IMG/VR virus record: IMGVR_UViG_3300040751_002080
Coordinates: 24,647 to 88,646 of that record
DNA: 64,000 nucleotides
From: a virus
Strand: one strand, 5' to 3'
Under the pieces are notes generated by a model. That model searched no databases. It had not been told where the DNA came from and worked only from the letters and a program-made list of their open reading frames with translations. Positions 20,398 to 63,788 of this stretch are shown in pieces (within the stretch, counting starts at the first letter, position 1; every line of letters starts with the position of its first letter). Made by a program: the position numbers and the translations under genes.

Positions 20398-21767
20398 ACG
20401 TATTTCTTACAAAGTTCAAAAAAGTCTGACATCTCTGGAAAAACTTGTTCATGATCTACATTACGTCTACGACCTTGCTCTTCAAAGAAGTTGTGAAAAT
20501 CTCTACGTCCTTGAATAACTTTATCTAATGGATATTCAGTAGACTCCATGTAATCAACAACACGTCTAAACTTTTCATACTCAATAGTACTAAACGCATC
20601 TTTGCGATTATCATCTGTATTCTCTTTGATAAACTGCAAATGATCATGCATATAACTCATGTAGTTTTTAGGCAGGATATTAATATCGTACTGCAACGGT
20701 TCTTTCAAATGCGGTGTGTCAAATCCTAATCGTTGCCATCTGTGCGTTTCTACATCATTATATTTTTTGCGCCATTCAAGAATCTTTTCAAGCAATGTAC
20801 GGAATGTAGTGACACTGAAGATGTTAAATGTAATCATAATAACCATCGGTGCTTCGCAGTTGCGCATAAAATAATCCAAGTTGCGTTCAAACACTTCAAT
20901 GTCTAATCCATCACGAATATACTCAGCACGTTTTCCCCAAGTATCAATACTTGTAAACATTTTAAAACGTCTAATCTTGTTGTTTGTCAACAAGTCATTC
21001 ACACGGTTTGTAAACTTTTCTAACTGTTTTGGTTTGCCGCCTAAGTTGCTGTTGCAGTTTAGTTCTAAATCTGGTTTAGGGTCTGCATCCAGCATATCAA
21101 ATAGTTTATATGTGCTCTGCTGTATTGTAGGCTCGCCGCCTGTAATGCGTAAAATATGTAAGTCTTTACTTAACTCTGGCCACCACTTCCAAAATGCATC
21201 TAAATACGGATTGTTTTGTTCTTCGAATATTTCAAACCAGTCAATATCACATCTGTGATTCTTTACGTTTGTGTAAGGCCCGTGTTGCTTGATCTCTTGA
21301 TGATATCTGCTGCTGGCTTTTGGATGACAATATCCACAGCGGAAGTTACATTCATTACCAAACGAGACTTCCAAGTATTCAGGATTAACATCAAACTCTG
21401 CGCCGCCTTCTTTAACAGCTTTCAAGCGTTCTTTAAAGAAGATAGTTTGGTTGCGTTGTTTTCTATCGCTAACATAATCTTTGCCCATTGCTTCAATCTT
21501 CCAGCAATAGTTACATCCGCTAGGTTGCTCGCCTTTCATCATAGCAGCACGTTCTGCTTTTTTCTGTACTGTATTATGAATAGCACTCGGATTAGTTAGA
21601 AGTGGCGCTGCATCAATCTTGTGCGGGGCAGGATGATAACAACTGTGTGTCTCTCCTGTTTGGAAATAAATGTTTGCGTGATACCATTTAGCAAAACAAA
21701 ACGTAGGAGATATTTCCTGCGTGATTTTATCAATCCGCTTGATTTCTTCGCTTTCGCTGCGTTCCAT
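20394..21767 (-). CDS. Radical SAM protein with N-terminal twitch-like cysteine domain
   Basis: Ninth radical SAM enzyme of the window, 457 aa. CX3CX2C is at C140, C144 and C147 (NECNFRCGYC), identical in position to the protein at 15-1394, followed by TGGEP at about residue 218. The N-terminus has FCFAKWYHA...TGETHSCYH, where a single Cys replaces the usual CC pair, and GCNYCW. The C-terminal EQVFPEMSDFFEL tail is the family tail. It is separated from the main cluster by the plus-strand cassette and belongs to the minus-strand operon with the glycosyltransferase-like genes. TAATG overlap with the upstream gene implies coupled translation. Substrate unknown. Confidence 0.86.
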   Translation of the reverse strand: MERSESEEIKRIDKITQEISPTFCFAKWYHANIYFQTGETHSCYHPAPHKIDAAPLLTNPSAIHNTVQKKAERAAMMKGEQPSGCNYCWKIEAMGKDYVSDRKQRNQTIFFKERLKAVKEGGAEFDVNPEYLEVSFGNECNFRCGYCHPKASSRYHQEIKQHGPYTNVKNHRCDIDWFEIFEEQNNPYLDAFWKWWPELSKDLHILRITGGEPTIQQSTYKLFDMLDADPKPDLELNCNSNLGGKPKQLEKFTNRVNDLLTNNKIRRFKMFTSIDTWGKRAEYIRDGLDIEVFERNLDYFMRNCEAPMVIMITFNIFSVTTFRTLLEKILEWRKKYNDVETHRWQRLGFDTPHLKEPLQYDINILPKNYMSYMHDHLQFIKENTDDNRKDAFSTIEYEKFRRVVDYMESTEYPLDKVIQGRRDFHNFFEEQGRRRNVDHEQVFPEMSDFFELCKKYV

Positions 21768-33494: not shown

Positions 33495-33502
33495 TATTTA
33501 TC
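33495..33502 (-). promoter_or_regulatory. T4-late-type promoter motif GATAAATA
   Basis: Minus-strand GATAAATA, 24 bp before the ATG at 33471. It overlaps the stop codon region of the giant structural gene, so it gives the fibre block a separate late start. Confidence 0.58.
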
Positions 33503-36500
33503 GGGGTAGCGATATTGTTTTGTCTGTTATAAATTTAGCTATTTGATTTGTACTATTTGCTAGGGATTTTCCTGTATCGTTCCATATTTTTCCTGTTCTG
33601 CGAACAACTTCAATGAATATTCCATCTGCAGGAGCATCGATATAATCTGCAAGTGTTAACACTGTGATTGTACTACCGTCGACTGTTATTATATTTTCAA
33701 TAGTATACTCTGGATCTATTGTTACATCTGCTTCAGGCGAATCTTGATCTACTGTTTTGTCAAATGTTACAATATTATCTTTGCGCAACCTAGTGCCGGC
33801 TAAAAATACATCAATCTCGTTTACACTAGTTGGAATAAAATCAAGTATAAACTCTTTGGTACTAGAATCACCAATAAACATAGTTTTAGCTGTTTCGTCT
33901 TTATAAGGAATATTTTCTTCTATACCTTGTCCTTGTACTTTTGTTGCAACTGGATATTGCTCTTTTATACCTGTTCCTAGCGTTCCTCTTCTTAGTTGTC
34001 TAAGTAGATTGCCGTCAACACTAAAGTATTCGATGCGTTCTTTGTCAATCCAAACAACTCCCGGAGTGCCAAGTGCTTTATTTGGTTCTTGTATTCCTGT
34101 GCTGTCAACTAACTGAATAGATAAATCATAATAGTTTAATGGTTGTTGCAACTTATACTCGTTATCTTTGTTTAAACGCTTGAAGTGGAATCTGTTTAAC
34201 ATATCTTTAAAGATACGATATCCAAACTTAGGATCGCTTGTTAATGCGGTAAACTGCAATACTTCAACTTTGTCATTTGATGTAACTTTGTTGTAAAGTT
34301 GAACGCCAGATCCACTTGCATCAAGTGAGTAATCGTTTTGTGGAGAAAGTAATATTCCGTTTTTAAATACCCAAACATAGTTTGCACTTAATGCAGGTTT
34401 TTCAAGTTTGATAAATCCTCTACTCAACAAGTTTTTATCAATATAAAACTGTGTTCCTGCTGGTGCTTGATTTGTATTCCAAACAATATCATACGAGTTT
34501 CTTTCAAATCCGTTTATATCATGGTTACTGAATACATAGATATCAACTGTTTCCCAATCAGCAGGTGCTTCTGTTAGTGATAATACATCAGTTTCAATAA
34601 GTTTAATATCACCAATGATTGCCTTTGTGCTATCGTTTTCCCAACTTGCTACAATCTCTGGTGTATCATCAATACTTTTTAGCTGGAATAGTTCTCTAAT
34701 ATATCCTTGAAGTTCTATTGTTAACGTCGAACCCGATCTGCTAAACTTTTCAACACAAGCAATAACTGTAGTACTATCATCAGATAATTCAAAACTTATA
34801 TCTTGTCCAACTGCTGGATCATTAACTTCTGAACCATTTTGTATTTGTACTGTTGTGTTTAAAAAGTAATATTCTGCATCTCTGATAATAAAGATTTCTA
34901 AAGTATCTCCAATCAATCCTACATTGTTGTTGAGAAGTTGTACTCTGCCATTTGCAGTGTCATAATAATAATCAAGTACATCGACAATAGAACCATTAAT
35001 ATATAATACAACGTCAGTGTTTCTAACTGCTGTTGTATCTTCAAACTGCCATCTATCAATGTCGTAAGCACGGTTGCTATCTATTGTATATTTTTTTCTA
35101 TAACCTGCATTTAAGAATCTACCATCACCACGTTTTACTAAAATATTGTGCGATAAAGGTTTATCAATAACTGGTAGTGCAACATCATTTGTAAATCTAT
35201 GAACTTTATTTGTACCATCGGTTACAAAAGTATTGTCGATTACCATTTGACTGTATTGATTTACGCTGCCGTCATATATTGTATATCCAATGATTTTTCC
35301 AGCAGTTACTTTGATAGGAAACTCTAGTTGGGCATTACCAGTATCTGATTCTGTAAGTCCGTAATCTGTTGTATCGTTTTGTAATACGCCATTTATTGTT
35401 ACAAACGAACTCAATCCAGACTTCCATGTGATTGGCAGGTTATATATAAACGTATCACCAGTAGAAACAATATTATCACTATCGATTAAATCTACACCGT
35501 TGGTTCCTATTGTAAGTATTGAAAGATTTTTTCCTTCGTCTAATGCTGTACTATCGTTTAAACTTATGAACTTGTTTTCATAGTCGACATTTAAATCGTC
35601 ATTATCAATAATGTCGCCGTCAACTTTTACAACCAATGTAGTGTTTGTTTGTGGAAAGTTGTCAAACTCCCATTCAATAGTTGTACCATCTGTGATATAG
35701 TTTCTAACACTAATAACACCCTGGCCGTCTACACTTCTATTATAAACTTGTATGTCTACAGTATCAAGCACCTGTCCTGGTACTTGCTCTTCTGGACCAC
35801 CACTGGTAGTTTCTGTAACAAAGCCGTCGCCGTCAACAACTATGTCGCCAGAGTCGATACCTTTAGCAGTTGTGTATTCAAAGTTTCCACCTTGTAAACT
35901 TACATCGTATGCAGTTGATTCTGGAGTAAAGCTACCATCGCTTGTTGATTTTCTAATGATCACAACATCGCCGTCTTTGGTTTCAATAACATCGCTGTCT
36001 AAGAATACGGTATTTGTAATATTATCGCCTTGCGGTGACACCATTTTTGCATTTGGATTGGCTGTTACACTACTTCCATCGTAAAACGGGTCGTCTATTC
36101 TTACATTATTAAGATATACATTGTATGTTACACCCGATTCCAATACACTGCTCAATGATATTATTTGAGTACTGCCATCTAATGTAATGATTTCATCTTC
36201 ATAGTTAGTGTCAAACGTATCAAAATCAATACCATAAGAGTTTGCATCAAACCCAGTATTTTCGCCAAAGCCGATACTATCCATTTGAACGCCACCGTAG
36301 TCAACACCACTCATTAACTGACTTAGTTCTTTGCCTGGCATGTTTGTAGTAGGCTTGTAAAAGAAGTTTATTCTATCTTCAGCAGTTAACAGGTTGGATG
36401 ATTTTTTATAGTTTATAACAACAGCAGCATTATTTGCAGGTGCAGTAGTAAATGTTATTTTACCACGATATCTATCAAATGTCTTGGTTGTATCAATAAT

Positions 36501-39500
36501 ATTTGATGCTACAAAATCACTTATTAGCTGTGGCTCCCCTGCTACAGTTATTGATATATCTGCACTATTTGTACTCAGTGGCCATTTTAAACTAAACTCA
36601 GTTAAACCGCCATTACCGACAAATGTTTCTGTTTCATTTAATGTGGTAAAATAGTATGCACCAGCAACTCTATCAAACTTCATCAACATATGCGTGGATC
36701 TGATTACACTGTTTCCTATCTGTGCATAAACAACTGCATCAACCCCGTCTTCTGTTAAACTTCCGTTTATTGTTACGGTTGGAGTTGTAAAGTATTTTGC
36801 TCCAACTGTATCAACTTCAATGTACTGAATTGATCCACCACCTATATACGCAAGTCCTTCGAGTGTTGGACCACCTCCTCCGCTAACTGTTACATTTGCT
36901 GTGTCAGTATATCCACTGCCGCCATTGTAAACAACAAACTCTGTTATTTCAAATCCAACATTGTCTAACCAATGTTTTTGTGGGTATGTAGTTGTGGTAT
37001 CATTTGTTCCAACAAGACCATTGTTGAAGAACTTGATAGTTTCGCTGATAATCTGGCCACGTTCTGCATCGTAACGAGGCGGCAAATCAAAATCAGTAAC
37101 ACTAGTTTGTGTTGGTTCTGTTCTATTATACGAACTGATATATTCTCTTATTTTAGTACTATATGGTTTTACTTCTTCAATATAGTCTTGATAGTTAGGA
37201 AGATTATCGTTTTGATAAGTTACTTTTTGTGTAAGCTCACCAACATTGTGTTTTGCAACTACAAAACTAGATTTAAAAATCCAGTCTAAATCAACCTGCT
37301 CACTCATTGCATATCTAATGCTACTAAAGAACAGTTTGTTCCATTCAACTTCTAGTTGATCAACAAACAAGTTATCTCTTAGTGCATATAATATTATTTT
37401 TATTTCATCAGTTGGCTCACTGTCGTACAACGAAATGTCATAGATTATGTTATCAAATCCGACTGCATCATTTTGATACAATGTATTGCTAAACTCTACT
37501 GTGCCATTTTGTCTGCCTACAACTTTATAGTTAATAGTATAATCTACTTCTAGTTGATTGTCAATCTTTTCTAATAGTATCCAGCCGCCAGATCCGATAT
37601 TTTCAATCTTAATAGTATTTCCTAGTTTATCGTCTAATCCGGCAAGTTCATAACTACCATTTATAACAAAATCAATAGATGTAACTTCGCTGTATCCAGT
37701 TGCATACCAGTCAACATACTTCCAATATCTATTAACATCATAGCTTTGAATGTAGTTTCTAAACCATTCTTGTGTGGATGATATCCAGTTGTACACTGCC
37801 CACAATCCGCCTACTCCTGTATCAGTTGTTACAAGAACACTAAACGGACGTACAATAAGTGTAGTATCACTTAAATAGTTTTTGCCGCCATTTACAACTT
37901 CAACTTCAATAACTTGTCCAAGATTGTTGATGTAGGTTTTTATTTCTGCGTCAACACCCTTACCTTCTATAGTTACAGTTGGACCATGTCGCTTGCCAGA
38001 TGTATAGTTACTGTCAATATACCCTCTGCCTGGTTCTGTAATAGTTGCGCCTGTAATAGTTCCGTCAACAATAATAGGTGTAAGAGTTGCTTGTTTAATT
38101 TTTGCAGTACCGACAAATCTCAACAAACTTTCTGTATCAATCTGTGTGTCCCACTCATTGCTAAACTTGCTTGGTGCAGTCTCAGTTTGGAACAGCGGAG
38201 AAATATCAAAATCATCTACGATTGTATATTGTGATAATACTCCGTTTACTCTTTCAATAACTTGTTTTAGTGCTTCGGCTCTATTAACAAATATAGTTTG
38301 ATTTGGATTATTTAAAATGCCATAACGTTGAGCAACACTGATATTTAAATCAGGCAAAACTTTTCCGTTTTTATCATACCCTGCTAAACTGTCAACCCAC
38401 TTGTCAACAATGTCATTGTTTGGTTTGCTTGATGCTAACCCTTCGACAACCAATGCATATTCACTATGAATGTTTTTGTTTTCTGCATTATCTTGAATAT
38501 AATAATCTACGTGCAAGATAGTATCTTTGTCTTTTACTAGATTTTTTACATTGTGTAAGGCAAACTTTTTACCATCGAGTAATGTAATATGTCTGTAACC
38601 TTGACCTGAAGGATCTGCTATCAAGTTTGCAACATCAAACGAGCTGATCTTTCTGCCATATGTATCAGGCAATGTATTTTTATTTTTAACCCAGAAATAA
38701 TACTTTGGTACAAAAACACTTGCTACACTATCGTACACTCTTGCTCTCACATATGAATCATCGCTGTATAAAGTTTTTCCACTTATACTGCTGGCTAATC
38801 CTTCAGTAGTGTCTGCTATTTCATCCCATTCACTTGGTAATAAATCACTTTCAACCCACTCGTACACATCTACACTAAATCCAGGAATAATCTGATTCCA
38901 TGTATTGGATTTATATTGTATACTTCCTTGATATGGATTGTACCATTTTATAGCATCAAGGTCCCACCATAGTTTTCCAACTTGCTGTTTACCCCAAAGA
39001 TCTGCTACACCAGTGTCTCTAGTGCCAACATTATAAACTGCTGGATCATAATAAGTCTTATAACTAAGTTCTTGTTCTGCAGGGCCAGCAATCCTTCCTC
39101 TAATAGGGTCTATATAATCAAGGTATGTGATCAAATCATTTGTATTTGTATCATATAGCCACACACCTTTGATTTTATCAATATCAACATAGCTGTCGCC
39201 TTGGCTGTTGATATTCCAAGCGTTGGCATTTAAGTCTGTTCTATGATCCTGAATCAGTCCTGTTTTGTCATCAACTACTGTTCCTATCGAAATAACATAC
39301 AAATGGTTTCTATTTAATACACTCAATATATCAGATGAATCTGATATATCTACTTGTGAGTAAAGTTTTTCAGCATATACCAACTTGTTGTTTAGTGTTT
39401 CGTAAACATAAACTTGTCCGTTGTCTTTGATTGTATCATAAATGCTTGTTGCTTTATTATCAAAATCTGTAAGTTCATTATCAAATGTTACATATGATTC

Positions 39501-42500
39501 CGTATCACCGTTGCGACTTGTTATAGCAAGTTTATTAGAATTAAAACTTACATTAGTACCAAATCTTTCATTCTTTTCACCATTAGGTGCAAGCAATATT
39601 TGATCTTGTACATATGTTCCGTTTGTAAGTTTATATACATATACTGCGCCATTGTAAATACCATTAGCATTTGATAACTGTGCGCCTATTGCTATTTTAG
39701 ATCCATCATCGTTTAGACTTAGTGTAGATCCAAATGCTTCTTCTTCGGTTGCAGGATCAATATTTTCATCAAATACAAATCTGCCATTTGTTTTTCTATA
39801 TATTGCTATACGATATTCGCCGCCAGTTTGAATGCCGCCTAATGCTAATACTTCGCCGTTTTTACTAATATCATAACTTGAACCAATAGCAAGTGCATTT
39901 AAAAACTCACTACTATCGTCATCAAGTAAGCCGCCAGTGCTATCATCAGTTTGTGATGAATAAGGAACATAACCCAAATAATCAACATATGTATCAAGTA
40001 CATCCCACTGACTATTGTTAAAAGGATTTCCTGCAAGTACGGTTGTATTTGCTTGACGAAGTTCGCCTTCATAATAAACAATATTGTTAGGAATATATTT
40101 TGAAATACTTTCCCATTCGCCTTTGTAGTTTGAATCTCTTGAATATGCATAAGATGTTACATTAGATTGACCTTTGTTGTTAACAAAATAAACACGGCCG
40201 TTATCTTTTAAACTTCTAATAATAATGTTGTGTTGGAAATCGCTTGGTGAAGCTGATTTGATTGCAATACCAAACTGTTCGTTTGTTGACGGCTCTGGAC
40301 TTAAAATAATATCAACTAAAGTAAATGATCCATCGATAAGTTTTTTATAAATGTAAACCACACCTTGATTTGCATATCCAAGACTTGCTCCAGAAGTATC
40401 TGTAACTATTAGATCTGCTAGTTCCCAATCTTGGCTTAATAGATTAATAGTACTACTTTCTGCTGTAACATCAACTAGAGCTCTCCATAGTGTTCCTCGC
40501 TGACTTACATAGTCTCCAGCTAGATAACTTTCGCCTTCAGTAAATACACCCTTGTATCTTGTTTTAACATTTGCAGCAGTTGGCGCACCAACATACAAAT
40601 ATTGTCCGTTGTCTGTTATTTCAACACTTGTACCAAACTCGCCTGCGTCATGATGATTAGACAACGGTTCTAGTGTTTGTTTTAGTGTAAATGCACCAGC
40701 TTCGCTACCACGAGTGTATATATAAACTTTGCCATCGTCTATGTCTGGTGTTCCAACTGCCAAAGTAGTATTGTTGTTACTAACAGCTAAATCAGATCCA
40801 AACTCTCTGCTACCAGTTTCGGGTGCTGCAATGCTTTGTTTAAAGCTACGTATAATATCACTATCGTATACTCCAAATGTTCCAGTGCCAATATCGTCAA
40901 TCCATACTCTGTCATTATCGTCTAAATCGTAAAGTTTTGTAATATTGTTTATACCCTCAGGTGACGATACTCTGCGTGACGATAGTTCTGATACTATTCC
41001 AATAGTACTGTCTGACAAGTCAATAAAGTCTTCGGTTATTGGGTTATCCAGTTGTATTTCAAAATCAGTATATCCAATATTTTGTACAATCCAAAAGCCA
41101 TTAACTTCTCCATTGACATTATTAAATCCAACAATATCACCTTCTGCAAATGTAATAGGCTTACTAAAGTTTGCTTTAAATCCTAGCTGTGTTTTTTCAA
41201 TAGACTGAATAGATACCGGAGATACAACATGCTTGTAAACATTCCACGATTGAGAATCTTTTGGTACCCATATGTAACTTCCAATATCAACACTATCGAT
41301 ATCTAGAACCAATATATCATTTTTTGTAGTTGTTAAAAAGTTTACTTGGTCTAGTTTAACATACCCGGCAGTTTTAGTGTATTCTGCACTACCAGATGTT
41401 AATGGCAAAGATGTATGTGCATAATCAGTTGGAGAAAGATATACATCTTTTCTCGGATATTGATAAACCAAATCTGTGCGTGTTGAATCTACTGTTTCAA
41501 CAAACTCTACAAGTTGTGGCTCTATTCTAAACTGGCTTTCATCTAGCTTAAATTCAACTTCGTCGTAACTTGTGGTTGCACCGTATCTACCAACACGTAT
41601 TGCCCATTCTTCATACAGTTCAACACTATCAGAATCTGCTGAACCAAGTTTGTCAAATAGCTTTGTAACAGCATTTGATGTACCTTTGTCTTGTATAAAT
41701 CCCTGATAGAACTTGTATTGACTAACATCGTCTTGAATAATATTAGCAAGATATTCACGCTTTTGATATCCAATAAGATGCTGAGCCAATCTTTGTTGTT
41801 CACTATCAAAGTTATCTGTATCTAAATCATAAAAATCTGCAAACTGATTTGCTCTATAATCCCAGTTTGGTTTTAATTCACTTACAGGCTTACTATCCAA
41901 TCTGCTCCAGTTTCCATAAATGAAATCTTGTGTGCCACTGTGTGTAAATCTAGCTGCATAATAAAACTCTTTGTATTTTACTAGTTCTGCAGTTTTATAA
42001 TCTTTATAGCTAGTCCATTCAGTAACTTTGGCATCATCGTATATAAATCCTGGAATATTTAAACTACCATTCCAATCGTCTGTTCTATATCCAACAACTT
42101 TCAGACGCTCTTGTCTATATCCTGTTTCAGGTACATAGATTGTATCGTTGAATACTGTTGTGTTATCAACTAACACAAGATGTTCTTTTTGTATCAGCGG
42201 TAGTTTGAGAAGATATATTCCGTCATCCTCTGATGTTAAACTAAATCTGTTGGTGTTGTCTCTGTAAATACTAGAACGGTTTTTACTAATCACATTTCCG
42301 TTTTCATTTAATACTGCAAATCCATAAAGATTGCTGTGTATATTATCAACTACATAAAAGTCTTTTTCAAACTCGACTTGATTTGCTAATGGTGATAATG
42401 TTAATGTGCTAGTGTTTGCCCAGTTTTGTGTTATCCAAAACAAAAACTCTTTACATGCTAGTTGCCAGTTTTCAACAGATTCAGTTGCTTTATTAAAATA

Positions 42501-45500
42501 TTCAAACTTAAATCCAATATCTTTTAAGTATTGTTGATAGCCTAAAAGAAAGTTAACCACTTGTTGTTCATCATTTAATATTGTTCCGTAATCAAGTGTT
42601 AGTATTTCATTGGTAAATGACTTTCTAAAATAAGCGCCTCTGCCGCCATTTTCAGGTAGACTCGGCAATGGAGTGTACAGACTCAAATTAAAATCTGTTC
42701 CAGTTGTATGGTTTGCATTTACTCTATAATATCTATCGTTGTATTCTACAAGTTTGCCAGCAACTAAAAACTTGTTTTCAGTCCACTGTATATAACTTTC
42801 GCTTATTCCTCCAATGTTTACAAACGGATCATTTGCATTTTCTCTTGGATTACGGTATTTAAAAGATGGAAGATCTTTATCATATCCACTTATGCGATAT
42901 CCTTTTGCAGTTCTTTCAACTATTACACCACTATAAGTTGCTACATCTTGAGGACTAGAAGTTCTCAAAACAATATTATAGTTTTCATCAGGTACAAATA
43001 TATTTCCTTTGTTTAACGGAGTCTTACTATCCAATACTAGTTTTAGTTTGTTCTTTTCAGCAAAGCCAGCAAGTTTAAATCCTATTTTATTGCTTAATAG
43101 TTTTAGATTATTCACATATGTAGTATATGGATACAACGAGTCTGCATTAATATATTCACTAATATAGTTTAAAAATCCTGCACTTACAGCATTTTTTATC
43201 TTAGGAAATATCAAATCTGTTGTGGTTATTCTTTTATTTGTAGCAGTATAAACCAAGTTTCCAGCAATATCGCGTTGAATTCTACTTCTATCAAATCCAA
43301 TACCCATTGTGTGTGCAGGGCGTGTTATCAAAGCAGCAATCATCAAACTAAACGGATATCCGCTACTTCTTCTCCATGCTGCTTCAGTTGGTGCTTCGTC
43401 GCCAAACTTAAATAAGTTTTGACTTTGCGATGCATAACTGAAGTTACTTACATATCCGCTTTCTAAAGGCGATACTAACTGTCCGTTTTCGTTGACTGGA
43501 ATATGTTTTAATAAGTTGTGTCTAATATATTTTTTGTTTCTTAGTACTGTTTTGCCAGGTTCTCTAATAACTCCATTCTGTAAATCAGTCCAAAGTATCA
43601 AGTTGTTGTTTGTATAAGGTGCAGGTCCATAAACACTTTCCCACCAAGTTGGTTGTATTCCATAACCCAACATTTCCCACGGATGTGTGTGTGGCCGATC
43701 AGTATCAAATGCTTGTCTGTAAATGCCTCTCCAAAATCCTGGTACTACTTCGTTTCGGTCATTTGTACTTCCAGTGTAGTTATAAGTAAAACTTTCACCT
43801 TGTACTATAAAGTCATTTTTAGTATAATCTGAAATCTTAGCAATATCGGTCCAGTCAATAAAATCTTTGATAATAATATTATTGATTTCTTGTGATGTAA
43901 TCTTTGTATTTCTATCAACACCTCCGACAATGTCGTTTATGTCAAATATGTCTGGATTGTAATCAACTTTTAGATTATTAAAAATACGCTTTTCCATTTC
44001 TAAAATCAAATCGTCTCTATAATCATCATAAGCAAGTGTAATACTGCCGTCGTGTCCTCTAATAACTTTTTGTGGAGTTTGATAACTTGAGTCAATAAAT
44101 ATCTCAGGAACATATGCCGGGAACATACCTATTTTTGTAGGTGTCGGTGGAATAAAACTACCTTCAGTATTATCGTATTCGTGTATAGTTAATATATCGC
44201 CATCGGTCAGTGTTGCAGAAATGTCTACAAATCCAGTTCCAGTAAATGTATAATCTCTATTAAACACAAGTTGTTGATTATTTAAATACACATACAATGC
44301 TTTATTACTGATAGCCGATTTATTAAAAACTGTTGAGAGAGCATAAACTGTTAATCTACTATCAAGTATTTCATATTCAATCTTTTTGCTGCCGCCAGTG
44401 GCTGCCATATCAGTACTGTAAAACGGAGTAGTTGTAGTCTTGGTACTATTAATCTCATTGAAGATAAAATCAACATATTCTTTTACTGTTCCGTTAAATG
44501 ATGTTTCAGTTGCAGTTTGTAAAAACTGTCTTTTAAACTTGGTATATTCATTTAGTGCATATCTAATAGCTGCAACAACATTTGAGTTTTTATTAACCAG
44601 ATGATAAAGTGATAGATTTAGAGGTCCGCTGTGTTGAACAAACTTTCTACCATATTTGGTAACTGGGCCTAAATCTCTTAGATTGTTTAAGCCAGGTTGA
44701 ACTCCTGAAAATGCTGCAACCTCAGAAACAAGTCCTTCAACATGATCATTTACTTCGCCTAGTGTAAACTCTGTAATATTTTTATTAGACGGGTTTCTTT
44801 CAAAGTTATGAGGAATCTCATAATAACCATTGTCATTTTTGTTTGCCGAGCTTTTGGTTTTAATAACAACAATATCAGTAAACCCAATATCCTTAGAAAG
44901 TACAACTTTGGTTGTTTTATTTTCATTGACTATTTGGTAATCAGGTTTATATTCATTGTTAACATATACTTTGATTTCTAAATCAGTTAACTCAGCACTA
45001 TTATTGTAAACATCGACTGGAAATCTATTTGTATGATCTTCGCCTGTGTATTTTCTTATAACATATTGACTGCTTTTTATATTTGCTTTTTTCCAAGCAT
45101 TAGTATAAGATATAACTTGATTATTATATTCTTGTAAAAAGAAAACATCACTGCTTATAGTTGTAAAAATATTATTAACTTTGTATTTGTAATCTTCTGC
45201 AAGCAATGCAAAATCAAAAACAATGTCGCCAATATTTACAAAGTTTTTGTATGTAAGAGGAAATCCAAGTTCGGTATCATTGGCGCCTTCACCGACTCTA
45301 TAACTAAAAAGTCTGTTTCCAGCAAAATCTGTACTGTCATAAACTGTATCATCTCCGAGACTGTTTCCGTTGCTGTCAAACAAATCAAACTTTGGTGCTT
45401 GATTTAAACCTATTTTATCTTGAGCTAGTTTCCATCCAGTTGTGTCATACCAATACATTTTTCCAGCATTTTTTACACCGTCTTTGACTAGTATGGTTTG

Positions 45501-47135
45501 ATTTAGAACAGGGTCAGTATCAGTTGTTTCAATCAAACTTATTTGAGTGGTGTTTGTATGAGTAATAAACTTGACTTCAAATATTTTATCTTTTACTAAA
45601 CTATCTGTATCTGCCACAAACAGTATACGCATTCCTTCAACTAAATCTATTCCATCAATGTTGTATCCGGCAGTGCCTTCGATTGTGCTAAATGCATCTT
45701 TTGTAAATGTATCAACTAAATCAACATTAAGTTTAGCTGTATTACCGTGATTCCACAAACGTAGATTTGGTTCGAACTCAATAATAGGACGTTTAGCTCG
45801 TGCTGTTTGATCTAGCTCGATTGGTTGATTATTAATATTTGCACTTTTTTCAATAACAGATTTATGGAACCAGCGATTGTATCTTGCCCATGCATTTCTA
45901 CTAGTGTCTCTTCTGTTTATACAAATATAATCCTTGTATCCTGCATAACTTCTAGCATTACTCCAAGGAACACGGTCAAATCCGTTTACATCAAACGGTA
46001 CTTGTGTGTCTTGTGTAAATATAGCCGGCACTTCAAGATCACTAACTGGAACTAGTTTGATAGATGTGCCTACTCCTTCAACATAGTATAGTCCTTGTGC
46101 ATATGTTGCTGGCGTTACATTGCCTTGAAAATACACTTTCATGCCATTTGACATATTCCAACCGTTGATAGTTGTGTATGTTTTTTTGCCTATGATTTCT
46201 TCGTCTACATTTATGTCACTATTTTCTTCAATGTCGTATACATTAAACACACCACTGTTGTCAATATCGTTTTGACTAACATAATAAAGATTTTCAGGAG
46301 CGTCTCCTGGTACTGTAAATTCAATGACGCCGTTTTCAATAAATCCATCTTCTAAATAATCTTGTGGATTTACCAATGTGTCGTCTACATTTTCATGTGT
46401 TAGTACAACACCTTCTCGGTACAATGTACTAACTAATGTACTATCTTTTGAATATTCAACTTTTTTCTGTCTGCTTGTTGCAAAACTAATAGGATGGCCT
46501 GGAACGTTAACTTCAAATCTATATGTTTGACCTCTAAACAACTTTATACTTTTATTACGTGTTACTCCATCAGGCGAAAATACATAGGCTGTATTATCAT
46601 CGTCAACAACAGTTTCAATAGTAAATGTACTAACTACTTGTCTACCCTGTCCTCTAATAGGAACTTCCTGCGGGCCGTTAGGTAGCCAGTAGTATTCTCT
46701 AAAGTTAGTAAACTTATCAAAATCAATATGTGGGTTCCAAGCATAAAACTCTTGAGCAAAAAGTTTGTCGTGATTTTTGATATTGCCGCCGAACGCACTT
46801 ATCTGTCCTAGTATATCTACATAATCAGCATCAAACTCTACATTTCCAAGATTATCCTGAACAATAGCAAACGGTTCTAACTGATAGTTTTCTCTGTTAG
46901 AGTTAATATCACTAATATAACTATCTTGAGTAGTAACTGCTTTAGCAGTTCTACTTCCAACAAATCCGTTAATCTTTTCGACAACACCTGGGTTGGTTAA
47001 CTGATCAACTGTACTACCTAAAAACTTTTTATTTGCATTAGTTCTAAAATATCTTGGAAGCAAAGAAGCCGAAGTTCTCTTTGCACTAGAACTTCCAGGT
47101 ACAGGATATTCATTTTGATCATCATTGTATGACAT
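33498..47135 (-). CDS. Giant multidomain virion structural protein (4545 aa)
   Basis: Uninterrupted 4545-residue frame, one fifth of the window. The N-terminus (PRYFRTNANKKFL, NPGVVEKINGFVG, QLEPFAIV) resembles large structural proteins I recall from marine T4-like phages. Residues about 2100-2600 hold FG-GAP-like repeats (LAVGTPDIDDGKVYIY, FGTSVEITDNGQYLYVGAP, FGSTLSLNDDGSKIAIGA) suggesting a beta-propeller. Residues about 3030-3430 have GxGY...TVTI sheets (TEPGRGYI, GGSGYTD). From about 3480 onward come repeated beta modules of the form FxL...VxVNGxxxxxDY, and near 4370 IDKERIEYF and LRQLRRGTLGTG. It follows gp6 with TAATG overlap, where T4 has gp7, so it may replace several wedge proteins. 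No catalytic residues are recognised. Confidence 0.85.
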   Translation of the reverse strand: MSYNDDQNEYPVPGSSSAKRTSASLLPRYFRTNANKKFLGSTVDQLTNPGVVEKINGFVGSRTAKAVTTQDSYISDINSNRENYQLEPFAIVQDNLGNVEFDADYVDILGQISAFGGNIKNHDKLFAQEFYAWNPHIDFDKFTNFREYYWLPNGPQEVPIRGQGRQVVSTFTIETVVDDDNTAYVFSPDGVTRNKSIKLFRGQTYRFEVNVPGHPISFATSRQKKVEYSKDSTLVSTLYREGVVLTHENVDDTLVNPQDYLEDGFIENGVIEFTVPGDAPENLYYVSQNDIDNSGVFNVYDIEENSDINVDEEIIGKKTYTTINGWNMSNGMKVYFQGNVTPATYAQGLYYVEGVGTSIKLVPVSDLEVPAIFTQDTQVPFDVNGFDRVPWSNARSYAGYKDYICINRRDTSRNAWARYNRWFHKSVIEKSANINNQPIELDQTARAKRPIIEFEPNLRLWNHGNTAKLNVDLVDTFTKDAFSTIEGTAGYNIDGIDLVEGMRILFVADTDSLVKDKIFEVKFITHTNTTQISLIETTDTDPVLNQTILVKDGVKNAGKMYWYDTTGWKLAQDKIGLNQAPKFDLFDSNGNSLGDDTVYDSTDFAGNRLFSYRVGEGANDTELGFPLTYKNFVNIGDIVFDFALLAEDYKYKVNNIFTTISSDVFFLQEYNNQVISYTNAWKKANIKSSQYVIRKYTGEDHTNRFPVDVYNNSAELTDLEIKVYVNNEYKPDYQIVNENKTTKVVLSKDIGFTDIVVIKTKSSANKNDNGYYEIPHNFERNPSNKNITEFTLGEVNDHVEGLVSEVAAFSGVQPGLNNLRDLGPVTKYGRKFVQHSGPLNLSLYHLVNKNSNVVAAIRYALNEYTKFKRQFLQTATETSFNGTVKEYVDFIFNEINSTKTTTTPFYSTDMAATGGSKKIEYEILDSRLTVYALSTVFNKSAISNKALYVYLNNQQLVFNRDYTFTGTGFVDISATLTDGDILTIHEYDNTEGSFIPPTPTKIGMFPAYVPEIFIDSSYQTPQKVIRGHDGSITLAYDDYRDDLILEMEKRIFNNLKVDYNPDIFDINDIVGGVDRNTKITSQEINNIIIKDFIDWTDIAKISDYTKNDFIVQGESFTYNYTGSTNDRNEVVPGFWRGIYRQAFDTDRPHTHPWEMLGYGIQPTWWESVYGPAPYTNNNLILWTDLQNGVIREPGKTVLRNKKYIRHNLLKHIPVNENGQLVSPLESGYVSNFSYASQSQNLFKFGDEAPTEAAWRRSSGYPFSLMIAALITRPAHTMGIGFDRSRIQRDIAGNLVYTATNKRITTTDLIFPKIKNAVSAGFLNYISEYINADSLYPYTTYVNNLKLLSNKIGFKLAGFAEKNKLKLVLDSKTPLNKGNIFVPDENYNIVLRTSSPQDVATYSGVIVERTAKGYRISGYDKDLPSFKYRNPRENANDPFVNIGGISESYIQWTENKFLVAGKLVEYNDRYYRVNANHTTGTDFNLSLYTPLPSLPENGGRGAYFRKSFTNEILTLDYGTILNDEQQVVNFLLGYQQYLKDIGFKFEYFNKATESVENWQLACKEFLFWITQNWANTSTLTLSPLANQVEFEKDFYVVDNIHSNLYGFAVLNENGNVISKNRSSIYRDNTNRFSLTSEDDGIYLLKLPLIQKEHLVLVDNTTVFNDTIYVPETGYRQERLKVVGYRTDDWNGSLNIPGFIYDDAKVTEWTSYKDYKTAELVKYKEFYYAARFTHSGTQDFIYGNWSRLDSKPVSELKPNWDYRANQFADFYDLDTDNFDSEQQRLAQHLIGYQKREYLANIIQDDVSQYKFYQGFIQDKGTSNAVTKLFDKLGSADSDSVELYEEWAIRVGRYGATTSYDEVEFKLDESQFRIEPQLVEFVETVDSTRTDLVYQYPRKDVYLSPTDYAHTSLPLTSGSAEYTKTAGYVKLDQVNFLTTTKNDILVLDIDSVDIGSYIWVPKDSQSWNVYKHVVSPVSIQSIEKTQLGFKANFSKPITFAEGDIVGFNNVNGEVNGFWIVQNIGYTDFEIQLDNPITEDFIDLSDSTIGIVSELSSRRVSSPEGINNITKLYDLDDNDRVWIDDIGTGTFGVYDSDIIRSFKQSIAAPETGSREFGSDLAVSNNNTTLAVGTPDIDDGKVYIYTRGSEAGAFTLKQTLEPLSNHHDAGEFGTSVEITDNGQYLYVGAPTAANVKTRYKGVFTEGESYLAGDYVSQRGTLWRALVDVTAESSTINLLSQDWELADLIVTDTSGASLGYANQGVVYIYKKLIDGSFTLVDIILSPEPSTNEQFGIAIKSASPSDFQHNIIIRSLKDNGRVYFVNNKGQSNVTSYAYSRDSNYKGEWESISKYIPNNIVYYEGELRQANTTVLAGNPFNNSQWDVLDTYVDYLGYVPYSSQTDDSTGGLLDDDSSEFLNALAIGSSYDISKNGEVLALGGIQTGGEYRIAIYRKTNGRFVFDENIDPATEEEAFGSTLSLNDDGSKIAIGAQLSNANGIYNGAVYVYKLTNGTYVQDQILLAPNGEKNERFGTNVSFNSNKLAITSRNGDTESYVTFDNELTDFDNKATSIYDTIKDNGQVYVYETLNNKLVYAEKLYSQVDISDSSDILSVLNRNHLYVISIGTVVDDKTGLIQDHRTDLNANAWNINSQGDSYVDIDKIKGVWLYDTNTNDLITYLDYIDPIRGRIAGPAEQELSYKTYYDPAVYNVGTRDTGVADLWGKQQVGKLWWDLDAIKWYNPYQGSIQYKSNTWNQIIPGFSVDVYEWVESDLLPSEWDEIADTTEGLASSISGKTLYSDDSYVRARVYDSVASVFVPKYYFWVKNKNTLPDTYGRKISSFDVANLIADPSGQGYRHITLLDGKKFALHNVKNLVKDKDTILHVDYYIQDNAENKNIHSEYALVVEGLASSKPNNDIVDKWVDSLAGYDKNGKVLPDLNISVAQRYGILNNPNQTIFVNRAEALKQVIERVNGVLSQYTIVDDFDISPLFQTETAPSKFSNEWDTQIDTESLLRFVGTAKIKQATLTPIIVDGTITGATITEPGRGYIDSNYTSGKRHGPTVTIEGKGVDAEIKTYINNLGQVIEVEVVNGGKNYLSDTTLIVRPFSVLVTTDTGVGGLWAVYNWISSTQEWFRNYIQSYDVNRYWKYVDWYATGYSEVTSIDFVINGSYELAGLDDKLGNTIKIENIGSGGWILLEKIDNQLEVDYTINYKVVGRQNGTVEFSNTLYQNDAVGFDNIIYDISLYDSEPTDEIKIILYALRDNLFVDQLEVEWNKLFFSSIRYAMSEQVDLDWIFKSSFVVAKHNVGELTQKVTYQNDNLPNYQDYIEEVKPYSTKIREYISSYNRTEPTQTSVTDFDLPPRYDAERGQIISETIKFFNNGLVGTNDTTTTYPQKHWLDNVGFEITEFVVYNGGSGYTDTANVTVSGGGGPTLEGLAYIGGGSIQYIEVDTVGAKYFTTPTVTINGSLTEDGVDAVVYAQIGNSVIRSTHMLMKFDRVAGAYYFTTLNETETFVGNGGLTEFSLKWPLSTNSADISITVAGEPQLISDFVASNIIDTTKTFDRYRGKITFTTAPANNAAVVINYKKSSNLLTAEDRINFFYKPTTNMPGKELSQLMSGVDYGGVQMDSIGFGENTGFDANSYGIDFDTFDTNYEDEIITLDGSTQIISLSSVLESGVTYNVYLNNVRIDDPFYDGSSVTANPNAKMVSPQGDNITNTVFLDSDVIETKDGDVVIIRKSTSDGSFTPESTAYDVSLQGGNFEYTTAKGIDSGDIVVDGDGFVTETTSGGPEEQVPGQVLDTVDIQVYNRSVDGQGVISVRNYITDGTTIEWEFDNFPQTNTTLVVKVDGDIIDNDDLNVDYENKFISLNDSTALDEGKNLSILTIGTNGVDLIDSDNIVSTGDTFIYNLPITWKSGLSSFVTINGVLQNDTTDYGLTESDTGNAQLEFPIKVTAGKIIGYTIYDGSVNQYSQMVIDNTFVTDGTNKVHRFTNDVALPVIDKPLSHNILVKRGDGRFLNAGYRKKYTIDSNRAYDIDRWQFEDTTAVRNTDVVLYINGSIVDVLDYYYDTANGRVQLLNNNVGLIGDTLEIFIIRDAEYYFLNTTVQIQNGSEVNDPAVGQDISFELSDDSTTVIACVEKFSRSGSTLTIELQGYIRELFQLKSIDDTPEIVASWENDSTKAIIGDIKLIETDVLSLTEAPADWETVDIYVFSNHDINGFERNSYDIVWNTNQAPAGTQFYIDKNLLSRGFIKLEKPALSANYVWVFKNGILLSPQNDYSLDASGSGVQLYNKVTSNDKVEVLQFTALTSDPKFGYRIFKDMLNRFHFKRLNKDNEYKLQQPLNYYDLSIQLVDSTGIQEPNKALGTPGVVWIDKERIEYFSVDGNLLRQLRRGTLGTGIKEQYPVATKVQGQGIEENIPYKDETAKTMFIGDSSTKEFILDFIPTSVNEIDVFLAGTRLRKDNIVTFDKTVDQDSPEADVTIDPEYTIENIITVDGSTITVLTLADYIDAPADGIFIEVVRRTGKIWNDTGKSLANSTNQIAKFITDKTISLPR

Positions 47136-57558: not shown

Positions 57559-58389
57559 ATGGCTAGAAAAGTAAACTATCTCAATAACAAAGACATGTTA
57601 TTGGAGATACACCGAAGTAAGGCTACATTTTGTAGTTACATTGCACCAGAACATGCTGATTATGATATTATTTTGCCCAGTGTAGATAAAATCAACATAA
57701 GAACTATTGCTGAAGCAAAGAGAAACAAAGCAAAACTGCAAGGATCTCGTGCATACGAAGCTGCAAAGGCTTCTGGCAAAAAGGTAAAGATGGCAGAGTT
57801 TTCAGTAGATTATAGAAAGATTGAAAAAAACGAACTAATCTTTCGTATTATGACATTTGATCATATTCCAGAAGAGCCCGGAAGAAAGAAAAATCCTAAA
57901 ACAGTTGCCGATCATAAAACTAAACTAAACTTTCCTCCATTTCAGCACTATAAGTTTGATGATGATGACAATCTTATTTGTGTAGGCAAAAGTCACTGGG
58001 AAGGTGGCATGGAAAACGGATATTTTAACAAAGGACACGGCATGGCGACCAATAAACTTGCTATGATGTGGTTAAAACTTGTTGATCGTTATGCTACCCG
58101 TGGTAATGTGCGTGGATATACTTACAATGACGAAATGAAAGGCCAGGCAATACTACAACTGTCGCAGATTGGACTACAGTTTGACGAAGCAAAGTCTAAC
58201 AATCCGTTTGCATACTACACTGCTGTGGTTACTAACTCGTTTGTGCGTGTGATTAACATTGAAAAACGTGCGCAGAACATAAGAGATGACATTTTAGAGA
58301 TGAATGACATGAATCCTAGTCATACTAGACTACATGCAGGCGAATGGGAAGCTGCTGTAAAGCGTGAAGAGAGTGCAACTAAAAAATAA
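57559..58389 (+). CDS. gp55: Late transcription sigma-like factor gp55
   Basis: Protein of 276 aa with the gp55 block near its C-terminus: NKLAMMWLKLVDRYATRGN, YNDEMKGQAILQLSQIGLQFDEAKSNNPFAYYTAV, NSFVRVINIEKRAQNIRDDIL, given in pieces. In T4 this protein binds host RNA polymerase and directs it to TATAAATA-type late promoters together with the sliding clamp. T4 gp55 is about 185 aa; this one has a longer, lysine-rich N-terminal region. Shine-Dalgarno AAAGGAG is eight bases before the ATG. The matching late motifs upstream of virion genes in this window support the call. Confidence 0.9.
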   Translation: MARKVNYLNNKDMLLEIHRSKATFCSYIAPEHADYDIILPSVDKINIRTIAEAKRNKAKLQGSRAYEAAKASGKKVKMAEFSVDYRKIEKNELIFRIMTFDHIPEEPGRKKNPKTVADHKTKLNFPPFQHYKFDDDDNLICVGKSHWEGGMENGYFNKGHGMATNKLAMMWLKLVDRYATRGNVRGYTYNDEMKGQAILQLSQIGLQFDEAKSNNPFAYYTAVVTNSFVRVINIEKRAQNIRDDILEMNDMNPSHTRLHAGEWEAAVKREESATKK

Positions 58390-61492: not shown

Positions 61493-61942
61493 ATGAGTTG
61501 GACATATCGAGGTAAAGAAATAACTGAAATACCAGATGAGTATGAAGGATTTGTTTATCTTATCACCAACCTTACTAACAATCAAAAATACATAGGCAAA
61601 AAACTAGCAAAGTTCAAAACTACTAAGCCACCTTTAAAAGGCAAGAAAAATAAAAGACGCGGCTACAAAGAAAGCGACTGGAGAACATACTACGGTAGTT
61701 CAGACAGACTAAACGCAGACGTAGCAGCACTAGGCAAAGATAAGTTTACAAGAGAAATATTATACCTATGTAAAGGTAGAGGCGAAATGTCCTACATAGA
61801 GGCAAGAGAACAGTTTGATCGCAGAGTACTTGAAACAGATGAATACTATAATGGTATTATTAATGTTAGAGTTGGCGGATCAGACAAACTCAAACAGGCA
61901 TTGCTAGAACATCACATCCAGGCAAAACAATCCAACACTTAA
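61493..61942 (+). CDS. GIY-YIG family endonuclease
   Basis: Protein of 149 aa with a GIY-YIG-like nuclease core: GFVYLITNLTNNQKYIGKK at residues 19-37, where FVY and YIG are the two signature strands, then a basic stretch KKNKRRGYK and SDWRTYYGSS as in phage Seg-type enzymes. The family makes nicks or double-strand breaks and often serves homing or host DNA degradation. No DNA-binding C-terminal module is obvious. There is no close Shine-Dalgarno site; a GAGGTAAAGG lies about 25 bases before the ATG. It follows a 51-bp gap after the small gene and directly precedes the long non-coding region. Confidence 0.78.
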   Translation: MSWTYRGKEITEIPDEYEGFVYLITNLTNNQKYIGKKLAKFKTTKPPLKGKKNKRRGYKESDWRTYYGSSDRLNADVAALGKDKFTREILYLCKGRGEMSYIEAREQFDRRVLETDEYYNGIINVRVGGSDKLKQALLEHHIQAKQSNT

Positions 61943-62300
61943 GGTTGGCGGGCCAGTTCAAAAATACCGCTGTGGAAAAAGCTACCGTATAGGAGCACAC
62001 GTAACATACTGATCGACTACCCAGAGGTAGGAAGCCATCAAACAAATCGGGCTCACAGGTTGGTATAGATAGATTGTTGGCTGTCGAAAAACTGCACATT
62101 ACACATAAAAACTCTTTAGCACAGGAACGAAGCGAGAGGTAGTTGGAAACAACGATGTCGACGTAGGTTGGGAAAGGTCAGAGCCCATTGTGTAGCAGTA
62201 TAAACTAATACCTACTTCCGATCTCGGCTAGTGATACTCACATAATGTTTGAGAAGATGGAACCCTTAAACAGGTTCCGTCTGACCAGATCAATCTACAT
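61943..62300 (+). ncRNA. Candidate structured RNA in the longest non-coding gap
   Basis: No protein-coding frame is convincing here, yet GC content is higher than in the surrounding genome (134 of 300 bases in 61981-62280 by hand count). Hairpins include CTACC/GGTAG with a CAGA loop at 62017-62030, GTTG/CAAC with a GAAA tetraloop (GNRA type) at 62142-62153, and a 10-bp stem with one U-G pair at 62255-62282. GAGGTAG at 62136-62142 can also pair with CTACTTC at 62212-62218. Together these suggest a folded RNA of some 350 nt on the plus strand. I do not recognise a known class, the strand is assumed, and chance pairing cannot be excluded. Confidence 0.5.
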
Positions 62301-62301
62301 A

Positions 62302-62342
62302 ATATTAAATGCATATGCTTTGCATATGCCTTATTTAAATAT
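62302..62342 (+). terminator. Strong hairpin, terminator-like
   Basis: Perfect 8-bp stem GCATATGC (62311-62318) and GCATATGC (62322-62329) with a TTT loop; flanking ATATTAAAT and ATTTAAATAT extend the pairing. A CTTATTT run follows on the plus strand, less T-rich than a textbook terminator. It may end the upstream transcript or the candidate RNA, or serve as a processing site. Confidence 0.5.
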
Positions 62343-62384
62343 TACTAAAAAAATATAAATGTGTTGAGTGCAAACGAAAACACA

Positions 62385-62401
62385 GTTGAACGTAGTTCAA
62401 C
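62385..62401 (+). repeat. Perfect inverted repeat before the late promoter
   Basis: GTTGAAC / GTTCAAC, 7-bp perfect stem with a GTA loop. A second pairing, GTGTT (62361-62365) with AACAC (62379-62383), lies just before. Both are within 50 bp upstream of the TATAAATA box, so they could be a protein-binding operator or a terminator that isolates the late gene. Confidence 0.55.
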
Positions 62402-62409
62402 TTATAATA

Positions 62410-62417
62410 TATAAATA
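62410..62417 (+). promoter_or_regulatory. Perfect T4 late promoter TATAAATA
   Basis: TATAAATA is an exact match to the T4 late -10 element, 24 bp before the ATG at 62442. A weaker TATAAATG lies upstream at 62354-62361. It is the best late motif in the window. Confidence 0.75.
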
Positions 62418-62441
62418 CATTATGATAGTTGGAATATATCT

Positions 62442-63788
62442 ATGAAACTGAGCGAAGTAACATTAAAAAAAACACATTTGATATTCGAAGATGAAACTGA
62501 TACACGAGTTCCTGAAGTTGGTACTACTACCGATCTTGATGGTACAACGTACAAGTGGCGCGGACAAATGTGGACTGAGGTCAAACCTGACGGCAGTAAT
62601 GGAAGACCTGCACCAACTGGTGTTGGCAGACAACTAACATCTCAGTGGAGAACAAGTAACCCAGTTGGTCGAGGTGTATTTAAACTAACACCTGGTGTAC
62701 AACGACTTGCTGACGATAGATTTATGGTAACTCTACCTGATACAACAACTGTAGTTAATACTACAACTCTAGCAGATGCAGAAAAAATACAAGCAAGAGT
62801 TGACGATTTAAGCAGTAGAACTCCTGCACAAATTTCAAACACAATCGATACAGAAATCAGAGATGGCAAACTCAAAGGCGATTTTAAAAGATCGTTTTCT
62901 CTTGGTAGAGCTATTAGAAATGCAACAGCAGAAGATTACGCAAATGTACAAAAAGCTCGTAGTAGTAGACTCGGCCGCCTCTTACAAAATCGAATGTTTA
63001 GAGTTGTAATAGGATTACTTGGAACAACAGCATCTATTGTAGGTCCCTTCTGGGGAATGATGGTAGAAATTGAAAATATAAATCTAGAAATTGAACAAGC
63101 TGAACAATCTGGTGGGGATGTTCAAAGATTACAAGATATTAGAAACATACTCCAAGGACAACTAGTAGCCTATTATGCAGCTCAATGTGCAAGATTACTT
63201 ACAAGAATTCGATTTGTAAGAGCACTTATGGCACCAATAAGATCAGTAGTTAGAGCCGGACAACTGTCTGTTGCACTCACAGGTGCAGGTGCTCCAGCTG
63301 CATTTTTAAGTATGATTGTCACTGAAGCATTATGGATAGTAATACCACTAATTTTAAGTACATCAAGTATACAACGCTGGTTGGCAGAAATTATTGTTGA
63401 TAGCACATTCAAAGATATTTTTGTTAATACAGGAAGAAGTCTAGAAAATATTACCAATCAAGCTTCTATTGCTCTTGATGGAAAGTTTGGCACTGGCGCT
63501 CTGGCTAAAGCAATATCAGGTTTTGATCCAAAAGAAACTGAAGGTGTTACAGGAGAGTACTACGGCGAAAGTGAATGGGCCAAGTTAGTGTTTGGAACAT
63601 TATTGTTTCCGCCAAGTCAAAAAAGTAGATTGGTTCCTTACATACCTGAGGGTAGACGAGAAACACTGCTAACAGGTACGTTAGGTCTCAATCCTATAGA
63701 TGCATCTGAGAATCCTGCTGAACCTACTGCACAAACTAGCGAACCAGGTATGCCTACGAATCCAGATGCGGTGCCAGGACCTCAATAA
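62442..63788 (+). CDS. Late-expressed unknown protein with hydrophobic segments
   Basis: Unrecognised protein of 448 aa. The N-terminal 90 residues are polar, with a TTTDLDGTTYKWRGQMWTEV segment reminiscent of short beta modules in phage structural proteins. Two hydrophobic stretches, about residues 188-208 (VVIGLLGTTASIVGPFWGMMV) and 288-308 (IVTEALWIVIPLILS), could be membrane helices or buried core helices. The C-terminal 40 residues are Pro/Glu/Thr-rich and disordered. A perfect late promoter implies a virion or lysis-stage role; ejected internal protein or membrane-active protein are both possible. The stop codon lies directly against the stop of the convergent gene at 63789. Confidence 0.65.
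   Translation: MKLSEVTLKKTHLIFEDETDTRVPEVGTTTDLDGTTYKWRGQMWTEVKPDGSNGRPAPTGVGRQLTSQWRTSNPVGRGVFKLTPGVQRLADDRFMVTLPDTTTVVNTTTLADAEKIQARVDDLSSRTPAQISNTIDTEIRDGKLKGDFKRSFSLGRAIRNATAEDYANVQKARSSRLGRLLQNRMFRVVIGLLGTTASIVGPFWGMMVEIENINLEIEQAEQSGGDVQRLQDIRNILQGQLVAYYAAQCARLLTRIRFVRALMAPIRSVVRAGQLSVALTGAGAPAAFLSMIVTEALWIVIPLILSTSSIQRWLAEIIVDSTFKDIFVNTGRSLENITNQASIALDGKFGTGALAKAISGFDPKETEGVTGEYYGESEWAKLVFGTLLFPPSQKSRLVPYIPEGRRETLLTGTLGLNPIDASENPAEPTAQTSEPGMPTNPDAVPGPQ

Follow-up and report, generated by a model that had tools for sequence, protein, structure and literature searches.

The spacer downstream of a GIY-YIG endonuclease gene in an 88.6-kb virus record, that of a T4-like phage, raises the question whether it encodes a structured RNA and, if so, what this RNA does. 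In the window, i.e. the whole stretch of 64,000 nucleotides analysed here, positions 61943-62441 (499 nt) form the longest gap free of open reading frames (ORFs of at least 60 aa), the runner-up being 269 nt, and hence the preliminary description was right to single it out as the only gap above 300 bp. The raised GC content given there (about 45% for 61981-62280) also holds: we count 44.3%, while the window as a whole has 35.6%, and only 2.4% of 300-nt segments are equally GC-rich. For the possible new structured RNA three roles had been offered, a regulatory RNA, a ribozyme or the leader of the late gene; stand-alone regulatory RNA appears to be the best guess of the three.

The upstream genes are, in order, those of the late sigma factor gp55, gp47, gp46, a 69-aa ORF and a SegE-like GIY-YIG endonuclease (Table 1). 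PHROG 447 calls the family of the latter "NAD synthetase", a name copied into many phage records; the Pfam family SegE_GIY-YIG (PF19835) fits 61493-61942 far better. Elsewhere in the window, a tryptophan-halogenase-like protein (18321-19817) and two radical-SAM-like proteins (7262-8659 and 20394-21767), all assigned by PHROGs, are unusual cargo for a T4-like phage, and one ORF of 4545 aa spans 33498-47135.

Table 1. Positions of the RNA, its structural elements and the neighbouring features in the window.
Feature	Position	Strand	Remarks
gp55-type late sigma factor	57559-58389		encoded by the phage of the window
SegE-like GIY-YIG endonuclease gene, 149 aa	61493..61942	+	PF19835, E 3.5e-36; PHROG 447; usual upstream neighbour of the RNA
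Structured RNA, ~390 nt	~61920..62303	+	5' edge AGGCAAAACAATCCAACACTTAAGG overlaps the last GIY-YIG codons
P1 hairpin	61947..61971	+	61947-61951/61967-61971; 97.5% of cells paired; 2 pairs with double changes
P2/P3 hairpin	61972..62000	+	P2 61972-61974/61998-62000; P3 61981-61986/61992-61996
P4 stem	62006..62066	+	62006-62012/62060-62066; 98.2% paired; encloses the CAGA-loop hairpin
CAGA-loop hairpin	62017-62030	+	CUACC-CAGA-GGUAG; lineage-specific, inside P4
P5 hairpin	62068..62085	+	62068-62072/62081-62085; 98.3% paired; double changes in 4/5 pairs
P6, 5' pseudoknot strand	62100..62105	+	partner 62189-62194; double changes in 6/6 pairs
P7 hairpin	62112..62138	+	conserved loop GGAACGA (62124-62130); 98-100% paired; double changes in 6/6 pairs
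P8 hairpin	62142..62153	+	GUUG-GAAA-CAAC; GNRA cap in the window; double changes in 4/4 pairs
Core	62157..62228	+	P11 62157-62161/62224-62228; P9 62163-62168/62210-62215; both surround P10
P10, invariant hairpin	62170-62186	+	GGG[AAAGGUCAGAG]CCC; within the core
P6, 3' pseudoknot strand	62189..62194	+	crosses P9 and P11
R1, first copy of direct repeat	62240..62246	+	heptamer ACAUAAU; preceded by ACUC
P12, 9-bp stem-loop	62256..62281	+	between R1 and R2; 98.6% paired
R2, second copy of direct repeat	62297..62303	+	heptamer ACAUAAU; preceded by AUCU
Terminator-like hairpin	62311..62329	+	GCATATGC-TTT-GCATATGC, then a T-rich stretch
T4-type late promoter	62410..62417	+	TATAAATA; of the downstream 448-aa gene (62442-63788)

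The folding energy alone is not significant (z = -1.07 for 61943-62300, -1.64 with the last hairpin included, and +0.28 for the reverse strand), and hence the case for a structured RNA rests on its homologues. With the GIY-YIG protein as query, at least 598 relatives were found in viral contigs, from which 80 loci were retained, and the RNA was found downstream of the GIY-YIG gene in 79 of them; in the single remaining locus the contig stops 21 nt past the gene. The scan with a core pattern gave at least 120 stretches, some of them on contigs already found via GIY-YIG, and looser or shifted patterns pick up remoter members. Thus, conservation in relatives, on which the initial proposal hinged, is clear, and, judging from these contigs, hundreds of uncultured phages of the sea and of fresh water have kept the RNA. 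In the core (62154-62186) pairwise identity reaches 96%, whereas the fourfold sites of the gene next to it are at 53% (0.525), and the similarity among relatives fades just 5' of the terminator hairpin. Each of the five genomes that we read through has one copy of the core. Many contigs (L013, L019, L022, L031, L043, L054, L056, L070) end 139-146 nt past the GIY-YIG stop codon, as if the assemblies broke at the conserved RNA sequence that they have in common.

By blastn the RNA was found neither in 50,697 GenBank phage records nor in 72,556 plasmids, and its core patterns had no match in 84,980 prokaryote genomes; therefore, on the present databases, it is an RNA of uncultured phages. L241 and L242, the sole matches of a looser pattern that could have been bacterial copies, were dismissed as chance. 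Cultured phages do have relatives of the GIY-YIG gene (69% identity in methylophage Melnitz, 45-51% in others), and no such RNA was found behind these genes.

To score the structure, 48 diverse members were aligned and a hand-built model of 69 pairs, pseudoknot included, was compared with shuffled alignments and with slid versions of itself, over which it has an advantage, being picked on the same 48 sequences. Paired cells amounted to 95.3%, compared with 83.5% in shuffled and 35-40% in slid controls, and double-change cells to 386, compared with 127 and 28-83, respectively. Changes on both sides were seen in 37 pairs (25.9 in shuffles), and the covariation score was 0.337 (0.148 in shuffles). 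None of the 500 shuffles was as high on any of these four measures; the shuffles ignore relatedness and the aligned sequences are related, yet the double changes recur in many combinations. The covariation over homologues suggested in the preliminary description as a check is thus strong, and the compensatory changes by which a structured noncoding RNA is recognised occur in the model.

The long-range pairing candidate was borne out. It corresponds to P6, whose covariation is excellent (for the pair 62103-62191, AU in 25 members, UA in 17, CG in 3 and GC in 1), and since P6 crosses both P9 and P11, the core is a pseudoknot. In the 5' part, P2 is paired in 100% of cells, double changes affect 5 of 5 P3 pairs, and the P4 pair 62007-62065 swaps from UA to CG in about half of the sequences. 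The three local hairpins described earlier all exist, with corrections. Those with the GNRA cap (62142-62153) and the CAGA loop (62017-62030) lie outside the conserved core and are lineage-specific, the former in its loop; the stem given as 10 bp is P12 and has 9 bp, of which 3 are invariant, 4 vary on one side and 1 shows double changes. P8 is a size-variable appendage, the stretch 62139-62153 spanning from 10 to 69 nt in relatives. In very remote members [AAAAGCACAGAG]-like loops replace the P10 loop, and in L201, L202, L229 and L310-L314 the 3' core is retained with an unrelated set of 5' hairpins, i.e. the domains are swapped.

The conserved part is shifted relative to the originally proposed extent, 61943-62340, although the structured RNA does lie there. 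Its 5' edge falls, in the window, within the final GIY-YIG codons; nevertheless, AGGCAAARCAATCCAACACWTAAGG precedes the RNA even where another gene separates the two, and fourfold-site identity in GIY-YIG codons 136-149 is 0.81, compared with about 0.5 elsewhere. As the edge is kept behind other genes and the fourfold sites are unusually conserved, the conserved RNA begins near 61920, about 23 nt before 61943. Its 3' limit is R2, at 62303, and the strong hairpin noted at the end of the gap follows it. In most relatives a hairpin occupies this terminator position, and its sequence varies freely. The absence of a coding frame is borne out as well: the stretch between GCCC and ACCTAC measures 16, 17, 18, 20, 22, 23, 24, 25 or 26 nt in relatives, so that internal lengths do not change in multiples of three, and short open runs shift between frames; antisense ORFs are conserved as well, as a side effect of the conservation of the RNA. 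A second conserved element (62361-62402), located 3' of the terminator and 5' of the late promoter, consists of GTGTTGAGTGCAAACGAAAACAC followed by the hairpin GTTGAAC-GTA-GTTCAAC, occurs once in the window, and in relatives has the form of GTTTGAGCGNTAGCGAAAAC plus a covarying hairpin, e.g. ATATCTACGAAGTAGATAT.

The most peculiar feature of the RNA is the direct repeat on either side of P12, whose copies, R1 and R2, are 54-67 nt apart across members and change in lock-step. On a tree made without the heptamer letters, we counted 23 joint changes to the same letter, one change of R1 alone and one of R2 alone. Matched heptamers include ACAUGAA, ACAUGAU, ACAUAAU, ACAUAAA, ACAUGAG, ACGUGAA, ACAGGAA, GCAUGAA, GUAUGAA, AACUGAA, GGAUAAU, ACAGAAAG, GTCGCAAG, ATCATCAAGT, GUCGCAAG and AUCAUCAAGU, and the exceptions to the rule are 3 of the 182 loci, with one mismatch each, plus L316. 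Thus, in these loci R1 and R2 covary by identity, not by complementarity. The letters next to the two copies remain distinct, and so plain gene conversion over a longer tract does not account for the identity. The stem between the copies can change with the rule intact, since in L293 the locked repeat GTCGCAAG surrounds another stem, GAAGCC-UUAAUCA-GGCUUC.

We considered several partners for the heptamers and rejected them. Within the RNA, the 6-nt reverse complement of the own heptamer is present in 10 of 205 RNAs, compared with 7% when heptamers are swapped, and the region downstream of the RNA likewise yielded no partner. Within about 10 kb the complementary strand of the own heptamer gives 52 matches, compared with 70.6 for foreign ones. 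In five phage genomes long complementary matches sit in unrelated genes, and the matches in start regions share no orthologue. Translational bypass between matched codons was rejected too, as the distances between R1 and R2 are not kept modulo 3. The lack of a partner inside the RNA points to action in trans.

In the T4-like clade the order gp47, gp46, small ORF, GIY-YIG, RNA is largely fixed and the downstream genes vary; in several loci an extra gene lies between GIY-YIG and the RNA. Two loci from a different type of phage, L105 and L235, have no GIY-YIG gene, and the RNA is situated directly upstream of the small and large terminase genes. Hence, by its genomic context, the RNA is not tied to the GIY-YIG gene. 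The same small ORF lies immediately 5' of the RNA in L235 and in the T4-like locus L215, which suggests transfer as a cassette. In L105 an HNH endonuclease ORF (5023-5424) is located about 1.2 kb upstream of the RNA.

Comparison with known families yielded no assignment. The 4227 Rfam families, run against the window as covariance models in line with the earlier proposal, gave only chance matches (E 1.4 and 3.6), far under the gathering scores, and for six divergent loci of the RNA there was nothing at E<=1. ARAGORN found no tRNA or tmRNA gene in the window, in line with the initial impression that this is not a tRNA; nor is it a known group I or group II intron, as there is no Rfam intron match and the RNA sits between complete genes. 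GOLLD and ROOL form RNA-only multimeric cages. As far as the available part of one report goes (PMC12286853), they are likewise large structured phage RNAs from marine metagenomes with an obscure role, and GOLLD has a conserved 3' part and a less conserved 5' part; many GOLLD RNAs exceed 800 nt, and locked heptamers are not described for them in that part. In contrast, the RNA studied here measures about 390 nt, has no tRNA neighbour in the window and does not match the covariance models of these families. In the open-access literature we found no earlier description, which a subscription paper or preprint may hold. The RNA thus appears to be a categorically new family, in the sense that no known family matches, whereas its mode of action may prove to be of a known kind.

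We think it fairly probable that this phage RNA stands alone and acts in trans, and that it offers a single partner two equivalent sites. Transcription would use the plus strand and stop at the RNA's own terminator; the RNA would probably form the 3' portion of the GIY-YIG transcript or start at a promoter within the GIY-YIG gene. In the folded product hairpins would make up the 5' part and the pseudoknot around the invariant loop would close the 3' core, with the two identical heptamers presented on both sides of the 9-bp P12. As a free RNA acting in trans it may touch the same partner with both heptamers, either a nucleic acid by base pairing or a protein; this partner would change between phage lineages, whereas the invariant core loop would bind a constant factor. 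Two observations count against the trans-acting reading: no complementary target of the heptamer was found within about 10 kb or shared in the five phage genomes, and the fixed site beside gp46/GIY-YIG in the T4-like clade also fits a role in cis. In the latter case there would be no separate RNA but a 3' untranslated region protecting or processing the GIY-YIG (and gp46/gp47) messenger, with which the start in the last GIY-YIG codons, the end in a terminator hairpin and the fixed gene order agree. We regard this as unlikely, given that the upstream genes differ, several loci contain the extra gene, L105 and L235 lack GIY-YIG, the core is conserved far beyond the needs of an mRNA end, and the locked heptamers are left without explanation. 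That the RNA serves the late gene downstream as a leader, as proposed at the outset, or as a riboswitch has next to no chance of being right: the 448-aa gene does follow on the same strand, but the RNA ends in its own hairpin terminator before it, the gene downstream differs between relatives, and, since a separate late promoter, TATAAATA at 62410, serves the 448-aa gene, the RNA is not the leader of this gene.

Other possibilities assign the RNA a catalytic, guiding or packaging role. In a ribozyme, the pseudoknotted core would cleave or rejoin RNA at two equivalent reaction sites, R1 and R2, which lie where P12 begins and ends, and excision of P12 would then leave the same junction; the invariant unpaired core within the pseudoknot and the pyrimidine-rich ACUC and AUCU just 5' of the repeats are consistent with this. 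However, the RNA resembles no ribozyme or intron of Rfam, no guide sequence complementary to R1/R2 was found inside it, and it interrupts no gene; we consider a ribozyme role to be improbable. By analogy, R1 and R2 could also serve as alignment sites, donor and acceptor, in a strand-transfer or RNA-templated reaction by an unrecognised polymerase or ribozyme, and the lock would then be the trace of a product strand pairing with both copies. The DRT10 ncRNA and telomerase RNA have A-B-A' template repeats that must match while their sequence is free (PMC12632851), a likeness of logic and not of membership. Here, in contrast, the two repeats flank a conserved stem at a distance of 54-67 nt from each other, the locus is not a defence locus, and a reverse transcriptase gene (PF00078) was detected in none of 21 records with the RNA or the neighbour gene, compared with 3 of 14 control genomes; such a reaction seems quite improbable. 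That the RNA is a guide or scaffold of the adjacent GIY-YIG nuclease, as the near-constant neighbourhood in the T4-like clade might suggest, is very improbable, since GIY-YIG relatives of cultured phages lack such an RNA, the RNA occurs in L105 and L235 in the absence of GIY-YIG, and there is no variable guide segment. To our knowledge, there are no RNA-guided GIY-YIG nucleases. The HEARO or omega RNA associated with IscB is also a structured RNA beside an endonuclease gene, but of the HNH type, and it differs from the RNA studied here, which has no guide segment, no obligatory neighbour and no match in Rfam. We give as little credence to a packaging RNA resembling phi29 pRNA, another structured phage RNA. 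The copies in L105 and L235 do adjoin the terminase genes, and the T4-like gene order runs, by eye, into baseplate-, tape-measure- and portal-like genes; on the other hand, sequence, fold and family provide no link to pRNA, most loci are elsewhere and the terminase is not adjacent in the T4-like clade. Packaging of the T4 type needs no RNA.

This large RNA is strictly kept in aquatic phages that are very common though uncultured, and it occurs in two or more gene neighbourhoods that are unrelated; it very probably has an important role in infection, one outside the list of known phage functions. The identity rule for R1 and R2, combined with their free sequence, offers an unusually sharp test, so that the partner can be hunted by covariation.
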